Below, piece by piece: positions 833 through 17,970 of a DNA stretch of 64,000 nucleotides. Both the position numbers and the translations under genes were made by a program. Position 1 is the stretch's first letter. The number at the start of each line of letters is the position of its first letter. The notes beneath the pieces were generated by a model that searched no databases, was not told the DNA's origin, and saw nothing but the letters and a program-made list of their open reading frames with translations. Origin of the DNA: Bacillota bacterium (GTDB lineage Bacteria; Bacillota; Clostridia; Oscillospirales; Oscillospiraceae); NCBI GenBank assembly GCA_030535235.1, contig JAUNCL010000005.1:1-64000 (forward strand), in the 5' to 3' direction.

Positions 833-833
833 T

Positions 834-2630: not shown

Positions 2631-2916
2631 AAGTCTCTTCATCTGGTACAACGTATACGGTTTCGTACTCCTTTGGGATAGTGGCCCTCTCGACCACGCG
2701 GAGAATGGGATCCACTGCCCACATTGGCTCACCTGCAATCCTGTTGGCTTCTCTACAAATGAAATAGGCAAGTGGTTGGTATGCGTCCCAGAAGGCACCG
2801 AGAAAGCGCGCCTCGTCATGCTTATCCAGGCCGAAAGAGTCCTCGCTCAGAAAAATATCCTCCATACGTACATTGTGCATCTTAATCTGTTCGTTAATGG
2901 AACTGTTGTTGATCAT
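2623..2916 (-). CDS. Small protein coupled to the helicase
   Basis: This is a 97-aa acidic protein with a strong ribosome binding site (AAAGGAGGG, 8 nt before ATG). It has no signal peptide or membrane segment and no family was recognised. Its stop overlaps the helicase start, so the two are made from one message and may work together, for example as regulator or adaptor plus ATPase. That pairing is inference. Confidence 0.65.
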   Translation of the reverse strand: MINNSSINEQIKMHNVRMEDIFLSEDSFGLDKHDEARFLGAFWDAYQPLAYFICREANRIAGEPMWAVDPILRVVERATIPKEYETVYVVPDEETYD

Positions 2917-3045
2917 GGGTAAAACCCTCCTTTTTAATGAGCTTGACTCCGGAATCAGCTTGTGTTATTGTTATGCCATAGAACGACCGAAAAATCAACC
3001 CAATATGAATGACTTGTAAAAATTATCAACAATCCAGGAGGGCAT
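2917..3045. promoter_or_regulatory. Divergent promoter region, helicase operon and XRE gene
   Basis: This 129-bp AT-rich gap separates divergently read genes. A plus-strand candidate is TTGACT (2943-2948), 17 bp, TATTGT (2966-2971). The minus strand has a TTGATT-17-CATAAC candidate. The adjoining XRE protein is the obvious candidate to bind here, but no clean operator palindrome was found. Confidence 0.4.
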
Positions 3046-3846
3046 ATGGCACGGAAGAAAAAAGAAATTGACAAAAACGGGCCTTTTCAGACCCGGTTAC
3101 GGGACCTTTACACCAAGGATGGCAGAACCCACGAAGCGCTGGCAACCCTCTTGGACGTATCCCGTCCCACGTTTACCGGCTGGCTCGACGGGAATTCTGT
3201 CCCCGATATTCTCATCCTGGAGAAAATGGCCCGGCTGTTTGGTGTCTCCGCTGACTACTTGCTGGGCCTCAGTGACACGGCAGTTCCGGATGTTACGGCA
3301 AGAGCTGCTGTCGAGTATACAGGTCTGTCTGTGGAGGCGGTGGAGCAGCTGCACAACGGTCTTGACGATTTCGACTATGATGATACCGGGGACACAAAAG
3401 ATAAGAAGGAGAGGAACTTAAATATAGCATCGGCCCTAATCCAGAGTGAATTCTTTGCAAGAATAGTACATAATCTTAGTAAGGTTGCAAAAAATGCTTA
3501 TCTTGAAAGAACTTTGATGATTTTAGACTCACAGTATTTTCCACTTGATTCCGAAAAGAAAAATCCTGATTTTCACTTTGCAAGCGAGGAAGAGCGCAAC
3601 GTTGTCAAATCCAACCTGCTCCACGTGTTTAATACTATTGACCCGAGGGGGGAAGAACTTTTTTCATATGCCGTGTGGGCAATGGATGATGGCGCACTTT
3701 CAACTAATGTGTATGGATCACTGATCAAGACCCTAGAGAGCAATCAACTCCATCAATTTCACGCCACCAAGGCATTTACAGCCTATCTTGATCAGCTGAT
3801 ACAAGACAATTATAAGAGGGCTGAGGATCGGTTTAAGGTAAAGTAA
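3046..3846 (+). CDS. XRE-family HTH transcriptional regulator
   Basis: The product is 266 aa. Residues about 14-68 form a Cro/C1-type helix-turn-helix, including the typical ALATLLDVSRPTFTGWLDG recognition region and the following FGVSADYLLG. The C-terminal 190 residues are not recognised and may bind a ligand or partner. The ribosome binding site AGGAGGG lies close to the ATG. It is divergent from the helicase operon and convergent with hsdR, so it may regulate one of them or itself. Confidence 0.8.
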   Translation: MARKKKEIDKNGPFQTRLRDLYTKDGRTHEALATLLDVSRPTFTGWLDGNSVPDILILEKMARLFGVSADYLLGLSDTAVPDVTARAAVEYTGLSVEAVEQLHNGLDDFDYDDTGDTKDKKERNLNIASALIQSEFFARIVHNLSKVAKNAYLERTLMILDSQYFPLDSEKKNPDFHFASEEERNVVKSNLLHVFNTIDPRGEELFSYAVWAMDDGALSTNVYGSLIKTLESNQLHQFHATKAFTAYLDQLIQDNYKRAEDRFKVK

Positions 3847-3910
3847 TCCTGCTCCAATTTCCTTACAACACACAAGGAAATTCGAGCGGAAACGGGCACT
3901 TCTCAGGAGC

Positions 3911-3929
3911 GGTATCCTTACCCTCCCCA
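3911..3929 (+). repeat. Left repeat flanking the R-M operon
   Basis: GGTATCCTTACCCT followed by CCCCA is repeated in the same orientation at 11329-11348, one base longer. The two copies lie just outside the two ends of the hsd operon, as expected for the edges of an exchangeable cassette. Confidence 0.5.
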
Positions 3930-3976
3930 ACCCCAAAGTGCACTCCTAGGTTCAAAAATGCCCAGTACAAGCAACA

Positions 3977-4008
3977 AAAAGAGGACAGGATCGCTCCTGC
4001 CCTCTTTT
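3977..4008. terminator. Bidirectional terminator between XRE gene and hsdR
   Basis: The stem 3977-3990 with 3995-4008 has one mismatch, a 4-nt loop, and A and T runs at its two ends. It can therefore serve both convergent genes. Confidence 0.75.
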
Positions 4009-4040
4009 CTGTTTGAAGCTGCATATTCAATTGGGGGTGC

Positions 4041-7000
4041 TCAGTCCTTGCGTAGGGCCTTGTACAGCTCGTCCGCCATGGCATCCTGCACCTTCTGATA
4101 GAAGTCCGGGTCGTTGAACAGCTTGGAGAAGGACTCGTTGTTGTCCAGGAAGCACTGGGTCACAATGTCTTTGAACTTGTCCGGGAACAGGGACTTGACG
4201 AACATCTCGGTGCTGTTGTCCTTGGCGTACTTCTTGAACTTTTTGACCTCGGAGTCCTTCATAAACATCTGGTAAATGCCCTCGATGATGACCCGGTCGG
4301 CATCGGTAAAGTTGCCGGTGAACCGCTCGTTCACCTTGTCGATGATGCTCTGCAGGGTGTCCTTCTTCTTGTTGGGCACCTTGGGAGCCGTACCACCAAC
4401 AGGGGTAAACACGGGTGGCTTCTCATCCAGGATGATAGCCCCTTTGAAAGTCTCAGTCAGGGAAGCGTACTCCAGCTTGATCTTATCCTCGATGTCCACA
4501 AACTCGTCGCCTCCGGTTCTGGGCAGGAGTTTGATCAGATGCTGGGTGTACTGGTACTCGTTGAACAAATCCTTGTCGTGGAGCCGCACCAACTGGGTGA
4601 CATAGGCGTAGGCCTTATTGAACTTGCGCACATAGTCCCGAGCGGTAAAGCGCTCATCCTCGCTCAAATCCATGTACCGGGCGATCACGGGACGGAACAT
4701 ACCGGCCAGTCTGCCCAGGGCTACGGGATCTTGAGGCTTGCCCGACTGGGATGCCATGAACTTGTTGAAGGTCTCCACGTCGTCATAGTTGTAGAGCATG
4801 AAATCACGGAGCTTATTCCGCAGGTCATAGACCCGGTTCACGTCGGTGTCACCCTCCAGGACGGCTGTCTCATAGTACGGCAGGAAGGAGTTCTTGATGT
4901 CCTCCTCACTGTTTTCGAAGTCCAGAACAAAGGTGCTGTTCTTCCCGCCGGAGGTTCGGTTGAGTCGAGACAGAGTCTGCACGGCAGTTACGTCCCGCAG
5001 CTTTTTGTCCACATACATGGAGTGAAGCAGAGGCTCATCGAAGCCGGTCTGGTACTTGTTGGCTACGACCAGAATGTTGTACTGGCTGCTGTGGAAAGCC
5101 TTGCGGAACTTCTTGTCCGTGGTAATGTACTTGCCGTTCTCATCCAGATTCATGGTCGCCTCGGTGAAGGGCTTCTCGCTGGGATAATCCTCCAGGGTGA
5201 CCTCGCCGGAGAATGCGATCATGACATCACTGCCTGCACATTCCTGGGGATGTTCCTTCAGGTATCTCTTGATGGCCAGATAGTAACGGACGGCGTTGGC
5301 ACGGCTGTCTGCCACCACCATGGCCTTGCCCTTGCCGCCAATCTGATACCGGCAGTTCTCCAGGAAGTTGGTCATGATCATCTCTGTCTTCTGGGCGATG
5401 GTATAGCCATGCTGCTTGTAGTACTTGAAGAGGGCGCGGGATGCCTGCCCTTCGATCAGTTCAGGGTTGTCCTCGGACACACGGATCAGCTTGAAAGCCT
5501 CACGGACGGTAGTGTAGTTGGCCAGCACATCCAGGATGAACTTCTCCTCGATGGCCTGGCGCATGGAGTACACATGGAAGGGAGCTTTGATGTCCTCTCC
5601 CTCGGCATTGGTTCCCACCACGGTGCCAAAGGTCTCCAGAGTCTGGCCCTTGGGGGTAGCAGTAAAGGCGAAGAAGGACTGGTTATCGTGTCTGCCCTGA
5701 CCGATGACTGCGTTGATGTACTCGTTGGACAGATCCACCTCTTCCTCTTCGATGCCAGCCTCTTCAGCGTATTCCTTGACGGCAACGCCGATGTCGATCA
5801 GACTGCGCCGCAGGGCCTTTGCGCTCTCGCCGTTCTGTCCCTGGTGGGCCTCGTCAATGATGATGGCAAACTTACGTCCCCGGAAATTCTCCATGTCCTT
5901 CCGGGCAAAGAGGAACTTCTGGATGGTGCAAATGATGATACGCTTTTTATCGTTGATGGCTTCCGCAAGGCTGCGGGAGTTCTTCTTATCATCAATGGCT
6001 TCCACCAGACCGACCTGGTGTTCAAAGCTGTTGATGGTATCCTGCAGCTGGCTGTCCAGCACTACACGGTTGGTGACCACGATAACGGAGTCAAACAGGC
6101 CGTTGTTTTCTGCATCATGGACAGAGGCAAGACGGTATGCGATCCATGCAATGGAGTTGGATTTGCCGGAACCTGCGGAGTGTTGAATCAAATAGTTGTG
6201 ACCAGCACCCTTCTGCTTCACATCGGCCATGATCTTACGCACCACATCGTACTGGTGGTAGCGGGGGAAGATCATCCTTTCCTTGGTGACAGTTTTCGTA
6301 ACACCATTCTTGATCACTTCCTCTTTTTCCTTCACAAAGGAAATGAAGCGATGGATCAGATCGAGCAGGCTGTCACGCTGCAGAACTTCTTCCCACAGAT
6401 AGCTTGTGGCATAGCCGTTGGGGTTCTGGGGATTGCCCGCTCCGCCAGTAACACCGGCACCGTTGGAACCCTGATTGAAGGGCATAAAACGGGTGCTACC
6501 ATCTGCCAACTGGGTGGTCATCCAGGCCTCATAAAGGTCAACGGCAAAGTAAACCAGGAACCGGTGGTTCATTCGGAAGGCAAACTCCTTGGAGCTGCGG
6601 TCGTTCTTGAACTGGTTGATGGCACAGACATAGTCCTGTCCAGTGAGCTGGTTCTTCAGTTCCAGAGCCACCACGGGGATGCCGTTCACGGACAGCACCA
6701 TGTCGATGGTGTTGGCATTGTCGGTGGAGTAACGGAACTGCCTGGTGCAGCCCAGGATATTGGCCTCATAGCGTTCGGCATCCAGAGGATTCAGGTCGGA
6801 CTCCGGCTTGAAGAAGCAGACCTTCAGCTTAGTACCCATATCCTCGATGCCGTTGCGCAGGACATACAGCAGACCCTGGTTGGAGATTGTGGTCTCCAGG
6901 CGGTGGTACAGCTTGTCCGGGGCCTTGTCCCCGTAGTACTTAGTGTACTTGGACCATTCCTTGGGCTGGGTCTTGGCGATGAACTCACAGAGAACATCCA

Positions 7001-7145
7001 TGTAGATGCACTTGGAAATATCGTGCTGACGCGCATGCACCCAGTTGCCCTCGGCGTCCTGCCCGCTAAACTGCGTATAGCCGCCCGCCGGGGAGATCAG
7101 GAAGGACTCGATATCCCGCTCGAAGCGCTTTTCGCTTTTGTCCAT
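4041..7145 (-). CDS. hsdR: Type I restriction enzyme, R subunit
   Basis: HsdR (1034 aa) is the DNA-translocating and cleaving subunit of a type I restriction-modification complex. An N-terminal PD-(D/E)xK nuclease is visible (D148, E162, K164). The SF2 translocase has Walker A HSAGSGKS (about 322-329), DEAH (431-434), FAFTATP and a motif VI QTLSRLNR. Its start overlaps the stop of the preceding 83-aa gene (TAATG). It is the last gene of an hsdM-hsdS-membrane protein-small protein-hsdR operon on the minus strand. Length and motifs look intact. Confidence 0.95.
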   Translation of the reverse strand: MDKSEKRFERDIESFLISPAGGYTQFSGQDAEGNWVHARQHDISKCIYMDVLCEFIAKTQPKEWSKYTKYYGDKAPDKLYHRLETTISNQGLLYVLRNGIEDMGTKLKVCFFKPESDLNPLDAERYEANILGCTRQFRYSTDNANTIDMVLSVNGIPVVALELKNQLTGQDYVCAINQFKNDRSSKEFAFRMNHRFLVYFAVDLYEAWMTTQLADGSTRFMPFNQGSNGAGVTGGAGNPQNPNGYATSYLWEEVLQRDSLLDLIHRFISFVKEKEEVIKNGVTKTVTKERMIFPRYHQYDVVRKIMADVKQKGAGHNYLIQHSAGSGKSNSIAWIAYRLASVHDAENNGLFDSVIVVTNRVVLDSQLQDTINSFEHQVGLVEAIDDKKNSRSLAEAINDKKRIIICTIQKFLFARKDMENFRGRKFAIIIDEAHQGQNGESAKALRRSLIDIGVAVKEYAEEAGIEEEEVDLSNEYINAVIGQGRHDNQSFFAFTATPKGQTLETFGTVVGTNAEGEDIKAPFHVYSMRQAIEEKFILDVLANYTTVREAFKLIRVSEDNPELIEGQASRALFKYYKQHGYTIAQKTEMIMTNFLENCRYQIGGKGKAMVVADSRANAVRYYLAIKRYLKEHPQECAGSDVMIAFSGEVTLEDYPSEKPFTEATMNLDENGKYITTDKKFRKAFHSSQYNILVVANKYQTGFDEPLLHSMYVDKKLRDVTAVQTLSRLNRTSGGKNSTFVLDFENSEEDIKNSFLPYYETAVLEGDTDVNRVYDLRNKLRDFMLYNYDDVETFNKFMASQSGKPQDPVALGRLAGMFRPVIARYMDLSEDERFTARDYVRKFNKAYAYVTQLVRLHDKDLFNEYQYTQHLIKLLPRTGGDEFVDIEDKIKLEYASLTETFKGAIILDEKPPVFTPVGGTAPKVPNKKKDTLQSIIDKVNERFTGNFTDADRVIIEGIYQMFMKDSEVKKFKKYAKDNSTEMFVKSLFPDKFKDIVTQCFLDNNESFSKLFNDPDFYQKVQDAMADELYKALRKD

Positions 7146-7396
7146 TATGATACCTCCCCTTGATCGTCCTTGGTGTACTTAGTTGGGCGAGCACTGTACA
7201 CAAAGTCTTCCGCAACATCAAGATCATATTTCCGCAGAAGAGCTCTGATAAAGCAAATGCAGTCGTAAGCAGAGTAACCGGTGCTAATGTAAATTCCCGC
7301 ATCCTTTTTCAGTTCTACTGGATTCCTGACACCGGTTTCTTCGTAAGAGAATACAGGGTTCAGCCACGTCGGGAATTTCTCATGATTCTTAGCCAT
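7145..7396 (-). CDS. 83-aa unknown protein inside the R-M operon
   Basis: The ATG at 7396 is chosen because it overlaps the stop of the upstream membrane-protein gene (ATGGCTAA); an upstream in-frame start would only add residues inside that gene. The product is a small soluble protein without recognised domain. Its own stop overlaps the hsdR start. Its place in the operon suggests a role with the restriction complex or the neighbouring membrane protein, which is inference. Confidence 0.6.
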   Translation of the reverse strand: MAKNHEKFPTWLNPVFSYEETGVRNPVELKKDAGIYISTGYSAYDCICFIRALLRKYDLDVAEDFVYSARPTKYTKDDQGEVS

Positions 7397-8084
7397 ATTT
7401 TGACTCTTGAAATTCTGGCAAATCAGAACCATTGCCATAGTCAAGTTTGTATATCTTGCGGGGATGATGGGACAACGATCCTTTCACACGGATTACCTCT
7501 TTTAATGTTCTATACACACTATCCTTGAGTGTGTATACGGTTGCCTCGCCCATGTGAGACACCATTCTGGGTTCACTCTCATTTGCGAAACGAACCAAAT
7601 ACTGCGGCGATTCTTCATATGCCGTTGTTTTGTAGAACAGTTTGTCTTCCATGGCATAACTAAAAATAGAAACTTCCGGTCCTCCACATCGATATTCCCA
7701 TGTCTTATATGGCCGTTTGTTTTCCGTGACCATAAAATACATGATGATGGAGTATTCTTCGTCCGAGATTTTATCAAAGAAGCAGCGCCACTGTTCAACC
7801 GTTTCTTTGGCTTCCTCTTCGATAATTTCTTGATACTTTTTCTTCAGCTTCTTCCGTGAGCTTCGATTTCCCACACACCATGTGACAAAATACAATACGA
7901 GGAACAAAACTATTGCGATAGCTACAAATCCAACAATCACATTGATTTTTGAGTCGAACGGAAGCTTATCAAACAGTTCCGCAGGCACAAACACGGAAAC
8001 AACGACACTTATCACAAAGGACAGAAGTGTGATGATCCAGTTTTTGGCAAGAAGCGTATCAGCAATCTTTTCTAGCAAACTCAT
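7389..8084 (-). CDS. Membrane protein, superinfection-exclusion B (SieB)-like
   Basis: The product is 231 aa. Two hydrophobic helices lie at about residues 15-32 and 45-70, followed by a basic, coiled-coil-like stretch (RSSRKKLKKKYQEIIEEEAK) and a cytosolic domain of about 150 residues. Two N-terminal helices plus one soluble domain match the layout of SieB-type superinfection-exclusion proteins. That match is by layout and remembered sequence style, so it is tentative. It overlaps hsdS by 4 bp and the 83-aa gene by 8 bp, so it is translationally tied to the R-M genes. Confidence 0.55.
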   Translation of the reverse strand: MSLLEKIADTLLAKNWIITLLSFVISVVVSVFVPAELFDKLPFDSKINVIVGFVAIAIVLFLVLYFVTWCVGNRSSRKKLKKKYQEIIEEEAKETVEQWRCFFDKISDEEYSIIMYFMVTENKRPYKTWEYRCGGPEVSIFSYAMEDKLFYKTTAYEESPQYLVRFANESEPRMVSHMGEATVYTLKDSVYRTLKEVIRVKGSLSHHPRKIYKLDYGNGSDLPEFQESKYG

Positions 8085-9367
8085 ACTGATACCTCCCGCT
8101 TTCCGGTGACATATTCATAAATGAGGGAACGCTTGTACTGTTCCAGTTTTTCGATTTTGGCTTGCTTGAGGGCAATTAAGTGGTCAATCTCCATGCATTT
8201 TCGGTCGAGCAAACAACAGAGCTGGTTTTGAATTTCCGTTGGTGGCAACACCAACCAAATATCACGCAACCCCTCGCCACTGATGGTAAACTGGCCAGCG
8301 GAGGTGCTTGTGTGATGCTCGATTTCTGTTTTACCAGCTACCGAAAGAAGATAGTATTGGAAAAATTTTTTGCTACAAAGGTCGTTAATTCTCACTCGAA
8401 TAATATGATCGTTGTACGCAGTAACTTCTCCTGTATCCGCGTAAATTGCACATTTTCCAACAAGACTTTTGCTACCATTTACGCGGACAAAGAGGAAATC
8501 CCCGTCTTGTAAAGAATAGGTTGCTAATTCTTTCTCCGTAAGTTCAATCCGGTTGATGTACGAATAGTCAATACTACCATCAGTCGAAATATTTTTTAGC
8601 TTCAAGACAATTTGGCCTTTCGATTCTGCTAGATCTCGCCGAGTCATTCCGTTTTGAGTGCTCGCAACTATTCTCCGAGCCTTTGCCACATTCCACTGCT
8701 CTGGAATGTCCCCAATCCACTCAACGCCGCTGTCCTTCATCGGCATGGTGGGGTCAAGCCCCTTGGTGACAACCTCGGTAATCAGGCTTTGCTTGTAGGC
8801 TTTCAGCTTTTCAATCTGCATCTGGACATTGGCAATGAGGGTGTCGATCTTAACCGTCTGTGCAGAAATAGCATCCAGTATTTGCTGCTGTTCCTCTATA
8901 GATGGAACAGGCAGAAGAATGCTTTTCATTTCCTGCCAGCGGGTAGTCCATAAATCAGCAACAATTCCGTGCCCCCAACGATAGAATTCTTCTGCGAAGC
9001 CATAGTTCTTCAGGAGATAGTTCAAGTATGCTGGAATGACGGGGGCACCTTGCGCAGGATACAGCACCGTGTTTATCAGCGAGACAGAGCCATCTAGCGG
9101 AGAAACACCACAGGACTGTTTTCTGTCCGAACGGGAGTTAATAACAAAATCATTCTGGAGTACCATCTTGCGGTTATCATTGGCATCGGTTTTTGCCACA
9201 TTTTCCATCTGCGGCACAATTCCGCCTTTGGTCACAGACAGAGGTGGATAATCGGTATCGTTCACTTTTTCGTTTCGCACCTTGAACAAAGAGCCAATGG
9301 TCAGAGTCTGCCAAGATGCAGGAACACTGCCAATCCATTCCACGCCACTATCTTTCATATTACGCAT
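8081..9367 (-). CDS. hsdS: Type I restriction enzyme, specificity subunit
   Basis: HsdS (428 aa) has two target-recognition halves. Each opens with the same phrase, KDSGVEWIG..P..W (about residues 5 and 212), and each ends in the conserved coiled-coil spacer (KIDTLIANVQMQIEKLKAYKQ and the matching C-terminal segment). It directs both methylation and restriction to a bipartite site that cannot be predicted by eye. Its ATG overlaps the hsdM stop (ATGCGTAA). Confidence 0.95.
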   Translation of the reverse strand: MRNMKDSGVEWIGSVPASWQTLTIGSLFKVRNEKVNDTDYPPLSVTKGGIVPQMENVAKTDANDNRKMVLQNDFVINSRSDRKQSCGVSPLDGSVSLINTVLYPAQGAPVIPAYLNYLLKNYGFAEEFYRWGHGIVADLWTTRWQEMKSILLPVPSIEEQQQILDAISAQTVKIDTLIANVQMQIEKLKAYKQSLITEVVTKGLDPTMPMKDSGVEWIGDIPEQWNVAKARRIVASTQNGMTRRDLAESKGQIVLKLKNISTDGSIDYSYINRIELTEKELATYSLQDGDFLFVRVNGSKSLVGKCAIYADTGEVTAYNDHIIRVRINDLCSKKFFQYYLLSVAGKTEIEHHTSTSAGQFTISGEGLRDIWLVLPPTEIQNQLCCLLDRKCMEIDHLIALKQAKIEKLEQYKRSLIYEYVTGKREVSV

Positions 9368-11138
9368 GGCCGAACAACTCCTTCATCAGGATGGATTCCT
9401 CTGCCTCCAAGGATTTGATCTCCTCGAAGATAGAATCAGAGGACGCAGGGGCCACGAACTTGTAGAACAGGCGTGTAAAGGGTACCTCATAGCCAATCTT
9501 GTCCTTCTTGGGGTCAATGTAGGCCAGAGGATTATAGGGCAGGACGTTCTTCTCCATATAGGTATCCACGTCCTCAGAGAGGGGGATAATCTCTGTGTCA
9601 GACGCTCCCTTCACCGGCTGCATCTTGCCCTTTTTCAGGATGGGCTTGCCGTCCTTGTCGGCCTGGGCCGTTTCCACGGTCACCTTGGTGAAGCCGAAGA
9701 AGCTGTTGTCAAAGACCTTGGACTCCACCGCCAAGCCGTTTTCCTCGTATGTCTCGTTGCCGAAGTCCTCGTAGGCCCGGAGGATCAGGTCGATACAGGT
9801 GTCGTCCAGGTCAACTCGCTTGGAACCGATGTTCTTGCGGCGCTTCACATAGCACTTGCTGGCATCAATGAGCTGAACCTTGCCGCTGCGGTGCATGGCC
9901 TTGCCCTTGGTCAGAACCCAGATGTAGGTAGAGATGCCAGTGTTGTAGAAGAGGTCGGTGGGTAGCTGAACGATGGCCTCCACCATATCCTCCGTGATGA
10001 CATAACGGCGAATCTCGGAGGCACCACTTCCGGCATCCCCCGTAAACAAGGAGGAGCCATTCTGGATGATGGTCATACGACCGGAACCTTCCTTCAGTTT
10101 TTTCACGCCATTGAGCATGAACAGCATCTGGCCGTCAGAGATGGCAGGAAGACCGGGGCCAAAACGCCCCTCATAGCCACGCTTGGCCTCTGCCTCCACT
10201 TCGGTCTTTTCACGCTTCCAGTCGATGCCAAAAGGCGGGTTGGAGATGATGTAGTCGAACTCATACCCACTGAACGCATCGTCACTCAGGGTGTCGCCGT
10301 ACTTCATGCCGGATGCGTTGCCGCCCTTGATGAGCATATCCGCCTTTGCAATGGCATAGGTTTCGGGGTTGAACTCCTGGCCGAAACAGGTCAGTGCAGC
10401 ATCCTCGCTGATGGCCTGGAGCCGCTCGGTGAGACAGCCCAGCATCTGAGAGGTGCCCATGGCCATATCATAGGCCGTCTTGGTGCAGCCTTCCTCCATG
10501 ATCTCAGCCTTTTCGGGAGCAACCAGTAGCTCAGTCATCAGGTAAATGATGTCCCGGCTGGTGAAGTGAGCACCGGCTTGCTCGTCATAGGATTCGGAGA
10601 ATTTCCGGATCAGTTCCTCAAAGATGTAGCCCATGTCGGCAGAGGTGATCTTCTCCGGGGACATGTCGGCCTTAGTGGAGTTGAACTCCTGGAGGGTCAC
10701 AAACAGAACGCCGCCCTTGACCATCAGCTTGACGGTGTTGGCGAAGTCGAAGTTCTCGATGATGTCCTTAATATTAGAGGAGAACCCCTGTAGATAGGCA
10801 TCGAAGTTGCTCTCCACGTTGTCGGGGTCGGCGATCAGCTTAGCGAAGTCATAGTTGCTGGTATTGTAGAAGTCATAGCCGGACACACGGCAGAGGATAC
10901 CGTCACGAGCGGCACCCTCGATGTGCTGGGCATCCAGCTTTTTTGCCATCTCCACCACAGCAGCTTTGGTGGGCTTCAGCGCCTCGTCAAAACGCTTCAG
11001 CACCGTCATGGGCAGGATCACCTTGCCGTATTCATGGGGCTTGAACAGGCCAACCAGATGGGTGGCAATTTCCCAGATGAGGTTGGCCTTGGCCTGTATA
11101 TTCGCGTTGGTCTGCTTCTGCAGCTCGTTCATGGACAT
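9360..11138 (-). CDS. hsdM: Type I restriction enzyme, methyltransferase subunit
   Basis: HsdM (592 aa) is an N6-adenine DNA methyltransferase. The catalytic NPPF lies at residues 300-303 and an AdoMet-binding motif I region (YDMAMGTSQML) at about 223-233. The latter is a variant of the usual DPxxGTGG. An N-terminal helical domain precedes the catalytic domain. It is the first gene of the operon, with an AGGAGG ribosome binding site and a strong promoter about 90 bp upstream. Confidence 0.95.
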   Translation of the reverse strand: MSMNELQKQTNANIQAKANLIWEIATHLVGLFKPHEYGKVILPMTVLKRFDEALKPTKAAVVEMAKKLDAQHIEGAARDGILCRVSGYDFYNTSNYDFAKLIADPDNVESNFDAYLQGFSSNIKDIIENFDFANTVKLMVKGGVLFVTLQEFNSTKADMSPEKITSADMGYIFEELIRKFSESYDEQAGAHFTSRDIIYLMTELLVAPEKAEIMEEGCTKTAYDMAMGTSQMLGCLTERLQAISEDAALTCFGQEFNPETYAIAKADMLIKGGNASGMKYGDTLSDDAFSGYEFDYIISNPPFGIDWKREKTEVEAEAKRGYEGRFGPGLPAISDGQMLFMLNGVKKLKEGSGRMTIIQNGSSLFTGDAGSGASEIRRYVITEDMVEAIVQLPTDLFYNTGISTYIWVLTKGKAMHRSGKVQLIDASKCYVKRRKNIGSKRVDLDDTCIDLILRAYEDFGNETYEENGLAVESKVFDNSFFGFTKVTVETAQADKDGKPILKKGKMQPVKGASDTEIIPLSEDVDTYMEKNVLPYNPLAYIDPKKDKIGYEVPFTRLFYKFVAPASSDSIFEEIKSLEAEESILMKELFGHA

Positions 11139-11229
11139 AGTCTTGTCTCCTCCTATCGATCAAAAGAGGGGCAGTTCCCACGGGTCATTGATGACACCAA
11201 GGACGCTTTTGAATATAATTTTTCAATTT

Positions 11230-11258
11230 ATTATACGTCTCTTTCCGACAGATGACAA
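11230..11258 (-). promoter_or_regulatory. Promoter of the hsd operon
   Basis: On the minus strand, TTGTCA (11253-11258), a 17-bp spacer and a perfect TATAAT (11230-11235) lie about 90 bp upstream of the hsdM start. Confidence 0.75.
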
Positions 11259-11328
11259 GATAGTTCATGCCCGGAAAACAATGTATTCCATTGGAAATCT
11301 GAGCTAGGACGACGTTTTCATACAGGGA

Positions 11329-11348
11329 GGTATCCTTACCCTTCCCCA
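11329..11348 (+). repeat. Right repeat flanking the R-M operon
   Basis: The copy of the 3911 repeat, GGTATCCTTACCCTTCCCCA, is in the same orientation and lies upstream of the hsd promoter. Confidence 0.5.
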
Positions 11349-11393
11349 GAGCTAAAAGCGATTCTGGGGTAAAAAAGCCTGTAAATACATTAA

Positions 11394-11424
11394 GACGGTG
11401 CACCGACCGAAGTGATGCACCGTC
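11394..11424 (-). terminator. Hairpin downstream of the MBL-operon
   Basis: A perfect 9-bp stem (11394-11402 with 11416-11424) lies 39 bp after the last gene of the three-gene operon. The T tract is weak, so it is a likely but not certain terminator. Confidence 0.45.
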
Positions 11425-11462
11425 CAATATTATATAGTGTGGATTAAAGGATTCGTTATGGC

Positions 11463-11960
11463 TTAGTTCTTGAATTCCAGGGCTTTTTCTACGTGCTCAC
11501 GCACATATGCTGTCTGCTTTCTGTAGGAGAAAAGGAACAGAATCCCCAGACCCAGAACAAGGAGTCCATTCCGGTGCGCTCCCCAAAAGGGGCAAATCCC
11601 AGTCAGTAGCCTTACTCCCCATACGACAGGAATGCAAACCGTGGCAGTCAAAAGACTCCTGAAGTGGTTGTTCATCCCCGATAAGTCCTGTATCTTGGAA
11701 TCCAGCCCGCTTGCCTCTATAAAGTCTGATGGGGGCGCAAATTTCACAAACCCTATCCGCTTTAAAAAAGGCTCTGTTATAAACGAACCCAACCGACTGA
11801 TGACTAAGCCAGCAAAATAGTAGAGAACTATTTCTTCAGCTATACCCTTAACCGGGAATTCAATGCCCAAGACATATCTTAGGCCCACAACGAAAAATGC
11901 CCCTGGGAGAAGGTTTGTCAGGATGTTGTAAGAGTCCAGCTTTTCAAGTATGCCGTCCAT
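11463..11960 (-). CDS. Four-helix membrane protein of the MBL operon
   Basis: The product is 165 aa with hydrophobic segments at about residues 12-32, 43-62, 102-120 and 128-145, and a charged C-terminal tail. No enzymatic motif is visible. It starts 2 bp after the stop of the 177-aa gene, so the three genes form one tight operon. Similar short multi-helix proteins often act as membrane-damaging effectors in phage-defence operons, but here that is only inference from layout. Confidence 0.65.
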   Translation of the reverse strand: MDGILEKLDSYNILTNLLPGAFFVVGLRYVLGIEFPVKGIAEEIVLYYFAGLVISRLGSFITEPFLKRIGFVKFAPPSDFIEASGLDSKIQDLSGMNNHFRSLLTATVCIPVVWGVRLLTGICPFWGAHRNGLLVLGLGILFLFSYRKQTAYVREHVEKALEFKN

Positions 11961-11962
11961 GC

Positions 11963-12496
11963 TTACCTCCTTTTGGTTCTGGGTAGGCCGAGCGGAACCC
12001 GCTCAAACGCCGTCTGTACAGCTGGCATAAAGCCGTTTCTTCGTAGGCGGAACAACTTGCGCTCGGACAGAGATGTCCGGAATCCAAAGGTACCCAGGTC
12101 GTTGATTTCGACTGTCCTACTCGGGCTGTCAGTGTAGTCCCCTGGTAGGCCCTGTCTGGCATAATACAGATCAATCTGGGGATTCTTCCTCTTCAGGAAC
12201 CAGAGGAGGTCTTGGTCTCTGTACTCTTTCAAAACACAGGTGTTAGCCACAACAAATTCTCCTCGAACTACCTCTGCCCTCTTGCAGAGGAGAAGAACCT
12301 CATGAGCATGGGCCGTGATAAAGGTTCCATCGATCCCGTTGTTTGAGGTGCACATGAGGAACGGCTGCGATTTTACTCGCAGCTGTTCCCACTCGGACAC
12401 ATCTGTCCCGGTTAATTGGTGGATGAATTCCCTCCGAGCTTCCAGGTTCGTCGTATCACCGGAGATCTCCGGATCAGTGCTTACAATCCAGCGCAC
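11963..12496 (-). CDS. 177-aa unknown middle protein of the MBL operon
   Basis: This is a soluble protein with no signal peptide or membrane segment and a very basic C-terminus (PLGLPRTKRR). Notable segments are ITAHAHEVLLLC (about residues 60-71) and LSERKLFRLRRNGF (about 142-155). No family was recognised. Its start lies 23 bp inside the end of the MBL gene. Confidence 0.6.
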   Translation of the reverse strand: MRWIVSTDPEISGDTTNLEARREFIHQLTGTDVSEWEQLRVKSQPFLMCTSNNGIDGTFITAHAHEVLLLCKRAEVVRGEFVVANTCVLKEYRDQDLLWFLKRKNPQIDLYYARQGLPGDYTDSPSRTVEINDLGTFGFRTSLSERKLFRLRRNGFMPAVQTAFERVPLGLPRTKRR

Positions 12497-13409
12497 CGAG
12501 GATCACCCCTCTCGAACCACGTACCTTCTCTTTGGGCAGGATCACCACTCCGTTCTGTGTGTTCAGCGCCTTGGAGTAGCATTCTTTGTCCATAAAAGTT
12601 TTGAGCTTGTCCGAACCACCGCTTGTTTTTCCAGATCCTGTGTTGTCCGAGATGAAGAAGGTTTTTGTATCTGGGTCCCAAAGGTCGTCGAAGATGGCCT
12701 GTGCACTTTGCAACTGACCGTGATGGGGTAATTGGATGATGTCATAGGTGTCCAGGTCATTCATGTAGAGGGGTGTGGCATCTCCACAAAGGAGAACATG
12801 CTCACCGTTTTCCAACGTGCACTTGAGCTGGACACTGGCAGCGTTCATGACGGTTTCGCCCTCTTTACTCCCACCAATATGATCGCCGACTCGGTTATCT
12901 ACAGCTTGGGCAGCCACATCGGTGAACTCGTCAATCGTGGGGCCGACAATCTCACACGTTCCTACCTTTGTACCTGGAAGAGCCTCAATAGCCTCAAATT
13001 CTAGCTTTTCTGCGGTTTCAATAACGGCTCTTATGTTATCGAACTCTGCTAGCAAGGCCTCATTCATGCTCTCTTGACTTTTCCTCCTACCGCCGGCTAC
13101 CTTTTTAAGGATATCGTCGGTGTATTTTAAGTACTGGTGCGTGTACACCCAGACGTTGTACCCACCTTCGGAGGACAGCCACTCCAGCAACGGACATACC
13201 CCATCGGTGTGGTCGCTATCATTATGTGAGACAACGATATGAACCTGAGAAATTGCCGGATGGGCTAAGAGGAACCTCTTCACCTCTTCGGTGTGTCTCT
13301 CGTGTCCACAATCGTAGACCACTAGCGACCTGCCATCGTGTAACAGGATGCAGTCGCCAAAACGGGTGTCGGTGTCGCCATCATAGTGGCTCAGAGCTTT
13401 AAATCTCAA
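12474..13409 (-). CDS. ComEC-type metallo-beta-lactamase-fold hydrolase
   Basis: The product is 311 aa. The metal-binding signature SHNDSDHTDG (H62, D64, D66, H67) is the HxDxDH version seen in the extracellular/C-terminal domain of ComEC and in related stand-alone proteins. Further metal ligands are suggested by LLCGDAT and LPHHG. There is no signal peptide or membrane segment, so this is a soluble enzyme, perhaps a nuclease or phosphodiesterase. The start is TTG at 13409, supported by a GGAAGGAG ribosome binding site 7 nt upstream. It is first in a three-gene operon with its own near-consensus promoter. Confidence 0.8.
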   Translation of the reverse strand: MRFKALSHYDGDTDTRFGDCILLHDGRSLVVYDCGHERHTEEVKRFLLAHPAISQVHIVVSHNDSDHTDGVCPLLEWLSSEGGYNVWVYTHQYLKYTDDILKKVAGGRRKSQESMNEALLAEFDNIRAVIETAEKLEFEAIEALPGTKVGTCEIVGPTIDEFTDVAAQAVDNRVGDHIGGSKEGETVMNAASVQLKCTLENGEHVLLCGDATPLYMNDLDTYDIIQLPHHGQLQSAQAIFDDLWDPDTKTFFISDNTGSGKTSGGSDKLKTFMDKECYSKALNTQNGVVILPKEKVRGSRGVILGALDCKH

Positions 13410-13527
13410 ATAAGTACTCCTTCCTGCAAGCCTCTCTTGAGCTTGCTGTCACAAAAATTTTTCTCCGCTAAATGCGAAGTGCTTCCTCTTAGCACTCTCC
13501 CGGGCCGAGTGCCAGAGTTTACGGGCT

Positions 13528-13556
13528 ATCATAGCATGTGTTTCCTCAGTTGTCAA
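13528..13556 (-). promoter_or_regulatory. Near-consensus promoter of the MBL operon
   Basis: On the minus strand TTGACA (13551-13556), 17 bp and TATGAT (13528-13533) are present. The message would start near 13521, giving a leader of about 110 nt with two small hairpins ahead of the TTG start. Confidence 0.85.
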
Positions 13557-13662
13557 GTCGGAGTTTCGCTATTTTGAGACCGTGTGGGACACAAAACGGA
13601 CACTTCTTAACTAGGAGGATTTTTTGTTCAGTTCTAATAGGCGTAAGCTGAAAATCTCCCCC

Positions 13663-14271
13663 TTAGGTTATCCCATCCTGCTTGGCAAACCCATAAAACG
13701 TCCCTCGTTTCAATCCTGTCTGTCTCATGGCCTCTACTGCCGTAATTTCCCCGGCTCTCCATCTCTGGGTTACTTCCTCCCAATTGTCGGGTTTTACGAC
13801 TTTGGGCCGTCCCAAGTGCTTACCCTTGGACTTGGCTGCCTTGATCCCCTCGGCCTGTCTCTGCCGGGTTGTCTCCCGTTCCTGCTGAGCTATCGTTCCC
13901 AGGACTTCGATCAGGATGTTATTGACCATGTCCATGACCCATTCCTGACCTTCTGGGCAGTCCATCAAAGTTGTGGGTAAATCCAGCACCTTGACTCGGA
14001 TGCCGTTGTCCCGGTAGTATTGCAGCTCGTTCTTGATGTCGGCTTTGTTTCGGCTCAGTCTGTCCAGGGATTTGACCACAAGGGTATCTCCTCTTCTCAG
14101 CAGGGTAGTACGCAGGGCCATATATCCCGCTCGTTCCAAGTCCTTGCCGGATTGCTTGTCTGTTACGATGTCCCGCTCTGTAGCTCCCATGGCCTTAAAT
14201 GCCTCGATTTGTCGGTCAAGGTTCTGCTCCTGACTGCTCACTCTGGCATAGTAAAATGTTCTGCTCTCCAT
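13663..14271 (-). CDS. Serine recombinase, resolvase/invertase family
   Basis: The product is 202 aa. The N-terminal catalytic domain opens FYYARVSSQEQ with the nucleophile serine at about residue 12, followed by DKQSGKDLERAGY and the SLDRLSRNKAD motif. A C-terminal helix-turn-helix is preceded by KGKHLGRPK. The start at 14271 has AGGAG 6 nt upstream; the frame extends further upstream but only through the end of the SprT-like gene. The size fits small resolvases or invertases rather than large serine integrases. It may resolve or invert parts of the island. Confidence 0.9.
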   Translation of the reverse strand: MESRTFYYARVSSQEQNLDRQIEAFKAMGATERDIVTDKQSGKDLERAGYMALRTTLLRRGDTLVVKSLDRLSRNKADIKNELQYYRDNGIRVKVLDLPTTLMDCPEGQEWVMDMVNNILIEVLGTIAQQERETTRQRQAEGIKAAKSKGKHLGRPKVVKPDNWEEVTQRWRAGEITAVEAMRQTGLKRGTFYGFAKQDGIT

Positions 14272-14401
14272 CGTTGTCTCCTGTTCTGTCCAGAAAGGCC
14301 CCTGGGTTTTCGGATATGTCCAAATACTCGCAGGGAACCTTTCTGGATGCTGTTCTGACTTCTTCTTCGCTGTGTCGTAAAGGTGTACCTTTATGGAGGT
14401 A

Positions 14402-15076
14402 TCACCCTGCAAGCACCAGCGGTTCGTTACAGTCCATGCACATGACACGGACTGTCTTGGTGGCCCGGACACTCATACCGCAACAGGGACAGAGGTATTT
14501 CCTCGTGCTGGACTTCTTCCGAGCGGGCCCTTCTTCTACGCCACTGTGGGTACCGGTGCCGGGAATCTGAAATCCTGCGTACTCGTTCCGGTTAATCAGA
14601 ATGTCGGTAAGGCCATTCTCCAGCACAAAGTCAAGAAGAGCATCTCCAGGGGATGTGTGCGACCATCCGTACTTGTCACTGCGCTCTACGATAAGCCCTC
14701 TGGATTCGGCTGCTTCCTTGAACCGTTTGTTGTGGTAGGTGCCGCTCCGGCTGCAATCCTGGATACCCTGCTCGTAGTTGTAGTAGTGGATCATCTCATG
14801 GAGCAAAGTAGCGGTGACAGACTCGATGGGACGGGCCAGAGTCCCCGCCCCGATGTTGATCTCGTGGCTGGCTCCCAGTTTAGAGATCCAGGTATCTTCT
14901 CGCAGGGAAAAGTGCCCGTAAGCTCGGGGGGTGGACTGGATGGTGATGGTGGGTCTTGAAAGTGCATTTTTGAAAAATTCTTCATTCAGCAGGTCGAAAA
15001 TCTTGTTCAGATATCCGGCCACTCGGTTATACGAAGTAAGGGGTTTCACAGCATTTTTCTCCTTCCTGTTTGACAA
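14402..15076 (-). CDS. SprT-like zinc metalloprotease
   Basis: The product is 224 aa. The zinc motif LLHEMIHYYN (HEMIH at 93-97) lies in the middle, and a C-terminal zinc ribbon (CPCCG and CMDC) follows, the arrangement of SprT/Spartan-like proteins. Family members in mobile elements are common and their targets are mostly unknown; eukaryotic relatives digest DNA-protein crosslinks. The ribosome binding site AAGGAG precedes the ATG. It lies downstream of the 91-aa gene on the same strand. Confidence 0.85.
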   Translation of the reverse strand: MSNRKEKNAVKPLTSYNRVAGYLNKIFDLLNEEFFKNALSRPTITIQSTPRAYGHFSLREDTWISKLGASHEINIGAGTLARPIESVTATLLHEMIHYYNYEQGIQDCSRSGTYHNKRFKEAAESRGLIVERSDKYGWSHTSPGDALLDFVLENGLTDILINRNEYAGFQIPGTGTHSGVEEGPARKKSSTRKYLCPCCGMSVRATKTVRVMCMDCNEPLVLAG

Positions 15077-15098
15077 GAGGGAGTGGATACTTTATAAT
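15070..15098 (+). promoter_or_regulatory. Perfect consensus promoter pointing away from the SprT gene
   Basis: On the plus strand, TTGACA (15070-15075), exactly 17 bp, and TATAAT (15093-15098). It overlaps the SprT-like gene start on the other strand and drives no coding region, only the short stretch ending at the terminator at 15134-15182. Confidence 0.85.
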
Positions 15099-15104
15099 GG
15101 TCGT

Positions 15105-15183
15105 ACCCACTCCCCTTTGGGTTAGTGGCTTGGGCTCTTTGCGTGTCTACTTTGGTCGGTGTTCACGCAAGGGGCTTTTTTTA
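15105..15183 (+). ncRNA. Candidate antisense small RNA of about 79 nt
   Basis: A consensus promoter starts transcription near 15105, and a strong factor-independent terminator (12-bp stem 15134-15145 with 15164-15175, then seven T) ends it near 15182. No reading frame with a ribosome binding site lies between. The RNA would be antisense to the spacer between the 91-aa gene and the SprT-like gene and would touch the stop codon of the former. A role in controlling that message is inference. Confidence 0.7.
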
Positions 15184-15456
15184 TGCAATGGAAAATCTCC
15201 GGCTGGTGGTCTGCTTGGTGAACTGCTTGTACAGGTCATTGTGCTCCTTCTTAAAGGCGGTGGTGTCAAAGCGGTTGCTGAGAACGGAAGTCCAGCGGAC
15301 AATAAAGGTATCAGCTTCCAGCTCTTCCACCTGCCGGGCGGACATTTCGGCCTTGATGCTGTCCTTAATGGCCTCTGCTTCGGCCTGGGCCTCGGCAATG
15401 ACCTCTTCCCATTCCTTGAGGGCTCTGATCTTCTCGCTGATTTCGATGCTTGACAT
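15181..15456 (-). CDS. 91-aa conserved mobile-element protein
   Basis: The start at 15456 has AAAGGAG 9 nt upstream. The N-terminal half is a long acidic helix rich in Glu and Ala, and the C-terminal half (FDTTAFKKEHNDLYKQFTKQTTSRRF) resembles a type of small protein common in Clostridia phages and plasmids. Its function is unknown; resemblance to Gp157-like or host-nuclease-inhibitor-like proteins is only suggestive. It is transcribed from a promoter shared, in divergent layout, with the RHH gene. Confidence 0.7.
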   Translation of the reverse strand: MSSIEISEKIRALKEWEEVIAEAQAEAEAIKDSIKAEMSARQVEELEADTFIVRWTSVLSNRFDTTAFKKEHNDLYKQFTKQTTSRRFSIA

Positions 15457-15585
15457 ATCGTTTTGCTCCTTTTCTATGATGTGGTGAGAGTGCCAGTTGT
15501 TCAGACCCTTCTCTCTCGTGGCCCATGTCCGTGTCACTGGCTGCGGGTTTTGTCGTCAGGTTTTCTCCCTCATCTCTATGGTCTT

Positions 15586-15692
15586 ATTATAATATATCGT
15601 ACCCAATATATCAATGAGCATAGTTAACAAATATAGGGTACGATATATGTACAAGGTGTATATTGTACCCGATATCCCGAAAATGATATACT
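15586..15692. promoter_or_regulatory. Divergent promoters with three 12-bp operators
   Basis: The motif GGGTACRATATA occurs three times: reverse at 15593-15604, forward at 15636-15647, reverse at 15659-15670. The minus-strand promoter TTGATA (15609-15614), 17 bp, TATAAT (15586-15591) has the first copy in its spacer. The plus-strand promoter TTGTAC (15663-15668), 18 bp, TATACT (15687-15692) overlaps the third. The neighbouring RHH protein is the likely repressor. Confidence 0.75.
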
Positions 15693-15728
15693 GGATAAAA
15701 ATATTTCCTATTGAAGGGGGAAATGGCC

Positions 15729-15944
15729 ATGCCTGCATCCAAAGCCCAACAGAAAGCCGTCAGTAAATATATGAAAGCAAATTATGATGAAATCAAGGTG
15801 CGAGTCCCCAAAGGGCAAAAAGAAGCTATTCAGACCCATGCTGCTACCCGTGGTGAGTCTGTAAATGGCTTTATCAACAGAGTCATTTCGGAGGCCATTG
15901 AACGAGAGTCCGCAGAAATGAACGAAACCACCCCGGAGACTTAA
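15729..15944 (+). CDS. Ribbon-helix-helix DNA-binding protein
   Basis: The product is 71 aa. A short strand (EIKVRVPKGQKEAIQTHAA) and two helices (GESVNGFINRVISEAIERE) give an Arc/MetJ-type fold with an acidic tail. The start at 15729 is chosen because GAAGGGGG lies 8 nt upstream; an ATG six bases earlier is too close. It probably represses its own promoter and that of the divergent 91-aa/SprT operon through the three GGGTACRATATA sites. Confidence 0.8.
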   Translation: MPASKAQQKAVSKYMKANYDEIKVRVPKGQKEAIQTHAATRGESVNGFINRVISEAIERESAEMNETTPET

Positions 15945-15968
15945 AACGCTCCGAGGTGGTCTTCTTTT
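15927..15968 (+). terminator. Terminator of the RHH gene
   Basis: The near-perfect 12-bp stem 15927-15938 with 15949-15960 is followed by a T-rich tract. The stem begins inside the last codons of the gene. Confidence 0.8.
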
Positions 15969-16096
15969 TGCCCTATTGAGATGGGTGGCAATCTCTCAAA
16001 CTGACTCCAAACGACACGATGATTTCTTGCGCATGAACCCCAGAAAAATCCAGCAATTTCCTGGCTCTTTCGATAATTTTAGAGCTGGTATCCCGA

Positions 16097-16146
16097 GGGG
16101 GGAATTATTGGCTCGTTGTATATAGACCAGGACAAAATATCCCCCT
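16097..16146 (+). repeat. Right copy of the 50-bp cargo-flanking repeat
   Basis: A G run, central TATATAGA and terminal CCCCCT have the same spacing and orientation as at 783-832. It ends on the stop codon of the integrase. Confidence 0.5.
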
Positions 16147-17057
16147 CATAGTTTTAGGTTTGACAAGGGACTGGACTGAACCGCCAGACTTACAATGCTC
16201 TCATCTTGGATGGACTGTAAGTACCGCTTGGTGATATTGATGTTCTCATGGCCCAGCAGCCGAGACAAGGAATACACGTCCAGACCATTTCTCAGGTTGC
16301 ACTGTGCGTAATAATGCCGTGCCGTGTGGGGAGAACAACGAACCGTGTCCCTCACCTTCGCCTTTTCGTTGGCCTTGGTAAAGACATGCTCCAGAGCTTC
16401 CGTGGTCAGGGGCCTCCCTGTCCTGGATAGCAGATAGTTACCATAGTTCAGGGGCTTGTCCAGAAAATACTCTTTCCGCAGCCGTTCATATTTCAGCATC
16501 AGCTTTTTGAGATACGGTGTCAGTGGCACACACCGCTCCTTGTTCCCCTTCCCATGAATCAGAATGACATTGTCCCGGATATCCTGACAGCCCAGTCCAC
16601 ATATTTCAGCGTTCCTTGCTCCCGTATCAAAGGCAATGGCCAGAATCAGTTTATTCCGAGCGGATAGATAGGTCTTGCAGTTGAAAGCCCCAATCATCCT
16701 CTCTACTTCCCGATCTGTAAAGGTGTTGATCAGAACCTTTCCTTCCTTCTGCCAGCGCACCTTTAGAGCAGGGTTTGACGTTAAATACCCCTCTTCCACC
16801 GCATATTTGAAGAATGCCCGCACCCCTTTCAGGATACCGTTGCCATAGGAAGAGGAAAGGCCCTGCCCGATGAGTTCCTGAAAATAACGTTTCAAATGGG
16901 GCGGTTTGATCTCTTCCATTTCATAGATGCCATACTGCCGCTCCAGATAGGTTAGACACCGGGCATTGTTGTTGTAGTACCCCTTGATCGTCCGCTTGCT
17001 CAGTCTGCGCAGTTCACAGTCCAACTTGAACTCTGATAAACATTCCTTTGCCAACAT
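16146..17057 (-). CDS. Tyrosine recombinase / integrase
   Basis: The product is 303 aa with a complete phage-integrase-type catalytic set: R148 in FDTGARNAEICGLG, a beta-hairpin lysine region near 169-173 (HGKGNKERC), HTAR (H244, R247), H270 in LLGHENI and nucleophile Y279. An N-terminal SAM-like core-binding domain is present (about 5-95). It lies against the yebC attachment site and is the obvious enzyme for insertion of this element. Its ribosome binding sequence lies inside the hairpin at 17060-17097. Confidence 0.95.
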   Translation of the reverse strand: MLAKECLSEFKLDCELRRLSKRTIKGYYNNNARCLTYLERQYGIYEMEEIKPPHLKRYFQELIGQGLSSSYGNGILKGVRAFFKYAVEEGYLTSNPALKVRWQKEGKVLINTFTDREVERMIGAFNCKTYLSARNKLILAIAFDTGARNAEICGLGCQDIRDNVILIHGKGNKERCVPLTPYLKKLMLKYERLRKEYFLDKPLNYGNYLLSRTGRPLTTEALEHVFTKANEKAKVRDTVRCSPHTARHYYAQCNLRNGLDVYSLSRLLGHENINITKRYLQSIQDESIVSLAVQSSPLSNLKL

Positions 17058-17059
17058 AA

Positions 17060-17097
17060 AAAATCACCCTTTCGCAATGACGCAAAAAGGTGATTTT
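17060..17097 (-). promoter_or_regulatory. Hairpin covering the integrase ribosome binding site
   Basis: Arms 17060-17075 and 17082-17097 pair almost completely. Read from yebC toward the integrase it is followed by a T run, so it can act as a terminator. Its 3' arm contains AAAGGGTGA, the only plausible ribosome binding site for the integrase ATG at 17057. Read-through from yebC and translation are therefore both likely to be limited. Confidence 0.65.
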
Positions 17098-17226
17098 GGT
17101 GGTAGGTTTTGAGGTCGGTAAAACCTTGACGTATATCATTGTTCCCCGGAATTTTCCCGCATCTCTCAGACAAAACGAGCGAAAAAGTTAAGAAATACTA
17201 TCTAAAACAAGGGAAACGCAAAGAAT

Positions 17227-17376
17227 ATCCCGTGCTTACTCCTGCTCCCAGTTGTGGTACACGTTCTGCACGTCGTCGTTATCTTCCAGGAAGTCGATGA
17301 GCTTTTCCATGTTCTTGATATCGGCGGGGTCGGTCAGGGTGACGTAGTTCTGGGGGACCATCTCCACCTGGGCGGA
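17227..17376 (-). repeat. Right 150-bp attachment repeat (in intact yebC)
   Basis: This is the copy of 233-382 within the 3' end of the complete yebC gene. See the left repeat for the comparison. Confidence 0.9.
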
Positions 17377-17970
17377 GGCGAAGACATAGCCCTTGGCTTC
17401 CATAGCAGAGGCCACGGAGCCGCAGTCGTCGGGCTCGGTGTAGATGGTGAAGCACTCTTCCTCGGGCTCGATGTCGGAAGCGCCGCAGTCCAGGGCGTCC
17501 ATCATGACGGTATCCTCATCCAGGTCGCCGTCCTCGTTGGCCAGGATGATAACGCCCTTGCGGTCGAAGGACCAGGACACGCAGCCGGTGGCGCCCAGGC
17601 CCTTGCCGTACTTGTCCAGCAGGTGGCGGACTTCGGGCGCGGTGCGCTGGCGGTTGTCGGTCAGAGCCTCCACGATGACGGCCACGCCGCTGGGACCGTA
17701 GCCCTCGTAGACCACGGACTCGTAGTTGTCGGTGTTGTTGGCGCCCAGGGCCTTGTCGATGGTGCGCTTGATGTTGTCGTTGGGCATGTTGGCAGACTTT
17801 GCCTTGGCAATGACAGTGGCCAGACGGGAGTTGTTGGCAGGGTCGCCGGAGCCGCCGGTCTTGACGGCCACGATGATCTCCTTGGCGATCTTGGTGAATG
17901 CGGCGCTGCGCTTTGCGTCGGCTGCGCCCTTGGTCTTCTGAATATTATGCCACTTGGAATGTCCGGACAT
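17236..17970 (-). CDS. yebC: YebC/PmpR family protein
   Basis: The product is 244 aa and begins with the family signature MSGHSKWHNIQKTKGAADAK. Members are cytosolic proteins described as transcriptional regulators and, more recently, as translation factors at proline-rich stretches. The frame is intact although its last 47 codons are part of the element-associated repeat, so insertion did not inactivate the gene. It is transcribed from its own promoter at 18052-18080. Confidence 0.95.
   Translation of the reverse strand: MSGHSKWHNIQKTKGAADAKRSAAFTKIAKEIIVAVKTGGSGDPANNSRLATVIAKAKSANMPNDNIKRTIDKALGANNTDNYESVVYEGYGPSGVAVIVEALTDNRQRTAPEVRHLLDKYGKGLGATGCVSWSFDRKGVIILANEDGDLDEDTVMMDALDCGASDIEPEEECFTIYTEPDDCGSVASAMEAKGYVFASAQVEMVPQNYVTLTDPADIKNMEKLIDFLEDNDDVQNVYHNWEQE

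Follow-up and report, generated by a model that had tools for sequence, protein, structure and literature searches.

Three genes on the minus strand, encoding an MBL-fold protein, a middle protein and a four-helix membrane protein, lie together in the window, by which we mean the whole 64,000-nucleotide stretch of DNA analyzed here (Table 1). The initial annotation had placed them in one operon between a restriction-modification (R-M) system and recombination genes, and the ORF coordinates confirm this layout: the MBL and middle ORFs overlap by 23 bp (12474-12496), the middle and membrane-protein ORFs are separated by 2 bp (11961-11962), a Shine-Dalgarno-like stretch lies 5' of each of the three starts, and the neighbors are type I R-M genes and a serine recombinase. 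That the operon is more than a chance arrangement follows from the identical three-gene order found elsewhere. The near-consensus promoter described for it stands in part. The site, TTGACA-17-TATGAT with TG before the second hexamer, lies about 120 bp 5' of the MBL start and agrees with the consensus at 11 of 12 positions, but the scanned stretch holds four such sites as against 2.5 (sd 1.7) in shuffled sequence, which is not above chance, so that only its place argues for it.

Table 1. Features of the three-gene operon and of the putative element that carries it, in window coordinates.
Feature	Position	Strand	Basis or remark
Direct repeat of 150 bp at the left edge of the putative element, duplicating the 3' end of yebC	233-382		99% identical to 17227-17376
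Four-helix membrane protein, PDC-M48A	11463-11960	minus	ORF of 165 aa, ATG start
Middle protein	11963-12496	minus	ORF of 177 aa, GTG start
MBL-fold protein, ComEC-type hydrolase	12474-13409	minus	ORF of 311 aa, TTG start
SDNTGSGKTSGGS, signature of the middle-gene-bearing MBL clade, codons 254-266	12612-12650	minus	window MBL
HNDSDH metal motif of the MBL, codons 62-67	13209-13226	minus	invariant in 7-row alignment
Promoter-like site	13528-13556	minus	consensus match only, 11/12
Right-hand direct repeat of 150 bp, yebC 3' end	17227-17376		repeat comparison

The operon sits in a putative integrative element of about 17 kb (233-17376) at the 3' end of ORF 17236-17970, which we take to be yebC. 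Direct repeats mark its two ends, and at its edge lies an ORF (16146-17057, minus strand) that is presumably a tyrosine-recombinase-like integrase gene. Besides the trio it carries type I R-M genes, a helicase-like ORF and genes for a serine recombinase and an SprT-like protein. GC content ranges from 0.43 to 0.55 over the first 17 kb and from 0.58 to 0.66 between 18 and 24 kb. The repeat occurs a second time in two of 16 genomes of the genus, the source genome and G006 (78%, about 10 kb from yebC); the weaker second repeat of G006 suggests that the yebC site may be reused. A comparison of plus-strand matches did not show a clean empty site. Also within these bounds, the ORF list reads as a helicase-like ORF at 834-2819 with a divergent 266-aa HTH-type ORF at 3046-3846, and a 231-aa membrane-type protein (7389-8084) lies between hsdS and hsdR; its Pfam matches to SieB (0.0013) and SLATT_4 (0.012) fall below the threshold.

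The first gene product had been read as a ComEC-type MBL-fold enzyme with an HxDxDH motif, and this assignment holds. The protein matches Pfam Lactamase_B (1.9e-6), and it keeps the ComEC-type metal ligands HxDxDH, GD and HHG as SHNDSDH, CGD and PHHG. Because these ligands are kept, the window MBL is likely to be an active hydrolase. ComEC proteins carry an HP motif near the C terminus; in the clade to which the window MBL belongs, SDNxG..GGS replaces this motif, and so the substrate may differ. The top PADLOC model is PDC-M48B (PDLC04676; 5.1e-14, best stretch residues 28-167), a weak match that nonetheless comes ahead of RTasMBL (4.8e-9), LmuA (2.8e-7) and Avs1a.

The SDNxG..GGS signature, which follows HHG, occurs in 7 of 85 MBL ORFs and is absent from the other 78, in a set of ORFs of at least 200 aa (84 distinct) from which the duplicate loci L001-L007, L009 and L010 were dropped. 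A middle ORF adjoins six of the seven, and the seventh (L097) is at the end of its contig. The window and L108 lie outside the set, and both have the signature MBL plus the middle gene. A tree of 75 MBL rows groups the eight of the middle-gene kind in a single clade with support of 100; the tool warned of possibly false long-branched joins elsewhere in that tree. A tree of 75 membrane-protein rows, whose bootstrap had not settled, requires three label changes for the six partners, and well supported branches make two of these unavoidable. (Both trees leave out L001-L010, L018, L032, L053, L071, L084, L091 and L093, membrane proteins shorter than 150 aa, and MBL ORFs shorter than 240 aa or farther off than 2.5 kb.) The MBL and the middle gene thus seem, from these trees, to have stayed together while being paired with new membrane proteins; it is also possible that other lineages lost the middle gene.

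Searches of Pfam, PADLOC, NCBIfam and PHROGs at E up to 1 gave no match to the middle protein, and we infer that it is a small alpha/beta protein. Of the profile searches of its family against the PDB, one returned two rows, the best at E 0.67, and another returned none. The basic tail ascribed to it was not observed in the aligned relatives, one of which (L096) is cut by its contig end. A trypsin-like reading was dropped with no family match, and so was a caspase/CHAT reading: profile comparison of seven middle proteins with 24 CHAT proteins (26 loci tried) and 15 C14 proteins (of 16) gave a probability of 0.1 each, as against 65 and 87 for the positive control, CHAT versus C14. Across seven aligned rows, Cys87, Phe139 and Phe164 (window numbering) are present in all seven, and Arg21, His63, Thr86 and Glu145 in six. 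The near-invariant polar residues Arg21, His63, Cys87 and Glu145 would leave room for an enzyme activity of its own.

Besides the window, the middle gene is found in seven other loci. The order MBL, middle, membrane protein recurs in G082 (L009), with identities of 62, 44 and 45%, respectively, and with the same genes in Clostridium sp. D33t1_170424_F3 (L030); it is also found in G346 (L011), in G1048 (L108) and, among uncultured Clostridia, at the three loci L083, L084 and L085, the first two of which are close copies. Two viral contigs are cut short, L096 after MBL and middle genes and L097 after the MBL gene. A middle-family profile run over 2992 ORFs of 97 loci matched 12 loci, which are copies of seven (the window, L030, L096, L083, L084, L085 and L011), and found no further loci at E up to 1. 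We did not count G152, in which stops break the matched frame, or G970 and G990, in which weak matches (5e-4) lie inside frames of 778 and 504 aa. The family is rare: the middle protein turned up in two of 99 relatives and, across the order, in two of 394 genomes, its own genome counted, and searches of plasmids and phages gave no match. Scans of viral contigs with it yielded one contig, the same one found through its MBL, and other scans yielded none.

The members of this family fall into two halves that profiles join unevenly. A profile of the L083 and L085 proteins reaches L108 at 8e-8 and, with L108 added, L011 at 5e-6. With the window-group profile, L085 scores 1e-3 and L083 no better than 0.45, and L011 and L108 are absent among the matches listed; the reverse profile reaches L030 at 0.046 and L096 at 0.17. 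Comparison of the two halves as profiles gave 81% over 142 columns in one direction and 13% over 137 columns in the reverse direction. On these scores, helped by the gene order and the MBL clade, homology of the window-group proteins with the other middle proteins is likely, if not beyond doubt.

The third gene product was correctly described as a small polytopic membrane protein, its family having four hydrophobic stretches on average. It matches the PADLOC model PDC-M48A (PDLC04670) at 2.2e-46 over residues 1-160 and phrog_11864 at 4.5e-30. Among 77 sequences, the positions of at least 80% identity all lie within residues 1-23, 45-66, 77-102 and 142-156, and helix 3 (about 103-120) and the loops at 31-43 and 120-132 have no position at 80%. 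The positive-inside rule relates the topology of membrane proteins to their charged residues, and by it we would place the conserved segments, helix 2 apart, in the cytoplasm.

A genome scan with the membrane protein returned 73 loci from many phyla, near-copies such as L018/L019 and L024/L071 included. The linkage to an MBL gene, which the initial annotation had put forward as a check, is conserved, and the trio order recurs: an MBL ORF lies within 3 kb in 65 of the 73 loci and within 150 bp in 50 (48 on the same strand, 2 on the opposite). Among the eight loci with no MBL match, L060 has an MBL-like ORF with HADDDH, and some contigs end early. An E2-E1-JAB-like ORF of at least 300 aa was detected by profile in 15 of the 73 loci, the weakest match being L062 (1.5e-6). 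In eight loci (L019, L024, L026, L042, L047, L071, L076 and L088) this protein lies between the MBL and the membrane protein, a count in which L024 and L071 are near-copies and from which the weak match L062 and L018 and L060, which lack an MBL match, are left out. Pfam finds E2, ThiF and JAB domains in the proteins of L019, L024, L026, L042 and L046, and ThiF only in that of L076. The middle gene of the window occupies the same slot as the E2-E1-JAB-like protein in those eight loci. Two further arrangements were seen in the scan: in L012 (6045-8828) one membrane protein is flanked by two different MBL genes beside ORFs that read like type I R-M genes, and in L038 (3602-5956) a 784-aa protein of no clear family, with a weak match to HATPase_c_3 (0.02), lies upstream of the membrane protein and MBL.

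The surroundings of the pair and of the trio are of a defense type. Four phage records, two of them of one phage, partially match the membrane protein, and in the one of these that was opened an MBL gene then follows convergently near the end of the record; the convergent two-gene arrangement is found in P2-like phages and two plasmids. Among 5426 E. coli genomes, 44 carry the pair, 21 at no less than 99% identity and 23 at 60-80%. The one E. coli context that was opened has the pair between the replication endonuclease and portal genes of a P2-type prophage, the region that has been described as the P2 defense hotspot of old and tin (Rousset, 2022; PMC9122126). The hotspot text of that paper does not name the pair, and the accessible main text contains none of the words 'metallo', 'ComEC' and 'lactamase'. 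Near the trio itself, type I R-M genes are found in the window and in L011, and ATPases whose best PADLOC match is AbiLi in L030, L011 and L096. L108 has a similar-looking ORF of 445 aa, and a DpnII-type restriction gene lies downstream of the trio in L084. Relatives of capH and capP lie divergently, directly upstream of the trio, in L083, L084 and L085. CapH and CapP are reported to control adjacent immune operons after DNA damage, and also to accompany Bub operons, for which phage protection was not shown and a stress-response role is possible, according to the part of the report consulted (PMC13373217). Because they also adjoin Bub operons, these neighbors are no proof of defense.

The combination of the three genes had been taken as not recognized, and this claim has to be given up on two counts. 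The membrane protein matches PDC-M48A strongly and the MBL matches PDC-M48B weakly, and a related operon of MBL and E2-E1-JAB has been in print since 2006 (PMC1779556). What survives of the claim that the system is undescribed is the middle gene, which no PADLOC model matches, together with the placement of the window MBL in a separate clade. Judged by sequence, then, the pair resembles a listed phage-defense candidate and the trio with its middle gene is not listed; unlisted here is the middle gene family, which appears in one MBL clade wherever the contig reaches far enough. PDC systems in PADLOC are candidates only, and the term 'PDC-M48' occurs in no paper of the open-access PMC literature. 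Nor was the pair of MBL and four-helix protein found as a tested defense system in the accessible part of that literature.

Comparison with described systems places the trio among several partial likenesses. Operon type 6a couples an E2-E1-JAB triple protein with an MBL (Iyer et al., 2006; PMC1779556), as do some of the membrane-protein loci, whereas the three window proteins have no E2, E1 or JAB match, a 177-aa protein fills that slot, and the 2006 description, in the portion available to us, mentions no membrane protein. HamM, the ComEC-like MBL of Hachiman, is a DNase once cleaved by a protease; mutation and cleavage data for the Avs MBL point the same way, and the MBL relatives of canu systems are protease-activated, as described in the sections of the source that we could draw on (PMC12799240). 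The window MBL shares the DNA-uptake type of MBL with these pro-nucleases of Hachiman, Avs1, Lamassu, DRT and canu, and weakly matches Avs1a, LmuA and RTasMBL, but it has a membrane partner and no recognized protease neighbor. SNIPE is a single membrane-bound nuclease with GIY-YIG and DUF4041 domains, by the accessible text of its description (PMC13190303). The likeness to it would be DNA cleavage at the membrane during entry; the difference is that in Pfam neither GIY-YIG nor DUF4041 matched the window proteins.

We propose, tentatively and as the best available explanation rather than a probable one, that the trio is a phage-defense operon, a variant of PDC-M48, in which a ComEC-type nuclease is held at the membrane and the middle protein acts as its controller. 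The proposal starts from the gene order, the families, the conserved linkage, the clade-specific co-occurrence and the defense-type neighborhood observed at these loci, and adds to them nuclease activity, anchoring, control by the middle protein and a trigger. The MBL protein would be a ComEC-type metal-dependent nuclease, which the four-helix protein would hold on the inner side of the membrane by means of its conserved segments in the cytoplasm. The middle protein, specific to this clade, would act as a controller and hold the nuclease inactive until infection, at which point the complex would cut DNA, most simply that of the incoming phage.

A rather doubtful alternative, although the closest rival, is abortive infection with the membrane protein as killing effector: it would open or depolarize the membrane, the MBL would make, destroy or relay a signal, and the middle protein would be the sensor. 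Transmembrane proteins of known systems are believed to be cell-suicide effectors, at least in the text seen of PMC9122126, and the capH/capP-like control in L083-L085 would suit a toxic product. Set against this, the conserved residues cluster in helix 2 and in the segments read as cytoplasmic, and helix 3 is variable. This pattern would fit docking, with the membrane protein as a platform for the MBL, better than the lining of a pore, but is not decisive. We rank the membrane-held nuclease first and the pore effector second on this conservation, on the analogy with HamM, on the kept metal ligands and on the failed caspase reading.

It is unlikely that the genes form an addiction or exclusion module of mobile elements, with the MBL and membrane protein as toxin and partner and any phage effect secondary. 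The occurrence of these genes on the putative integrative element, on plasmids and in phage records would suit such a module, as would the convergent arrangement in P2-like phages and two plasmids; the position in a hotspot of tested defense genes, as the available text of PMC9122126 has it, speaks against it, and so do the trio's neighbors (R-M genes, AbiLi-like ATPases and relatives of capH and capP). Ordinary DNA-uptake or housekeeping genes are a highly improbable reading: the E. coli MBL bears the RefSeq name 'ComEC/Rec2 family competence protein', but the middle protein is patchy in its distribution, as counted above, and lies on a putative mobile element. Least probable of all, barely worth retaining, is that the middle protein works as a minimal caspase/CHAT-like protease and activates an MBL pro-nuclease as in the canu loci, whose MBL relatives are protease-activated in the excerpted account of PMC12799240: one Cys shared by all seven aligned proteins and one His shared by six (Lys in L083) would allow it, but family libraries and profiles gave no protease family match of the kind expected of such a partner, the CHAT and C14 comparisons failed beside their positive control, and the alignment shows a short His-Cys spacing, 24 for the window protein and 14 for those of L108 and L085.

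Returning to the membrane-held nuclease, we consider possible, if on balance doubtful, a wider reading in which the MBL and membrane protein would be a general membrane effector with plug-in controllers: E2-E1-JAB, none visible, or the new small family of this clade, which would have co-evolved with the GGS MBL and swapped membrane partners. If this reading is true, it would be a new way of switching a membrane-held nuclease.

Overall, the operon appears to be a rare, previously unlabelled version of a widespread candidate virus-defense system. The shared membrane protein links PDC-M48, the E2-E1-JAB and MBL operon of 2006 and the pair in the P2-phage hotspot, and the trio adds to them an unlisted third family. 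Should the MBL indeed be a membrane-held nuclease, ComEC chemistry would join entry-stage defense, and the pair would be directly testable in E. coli.
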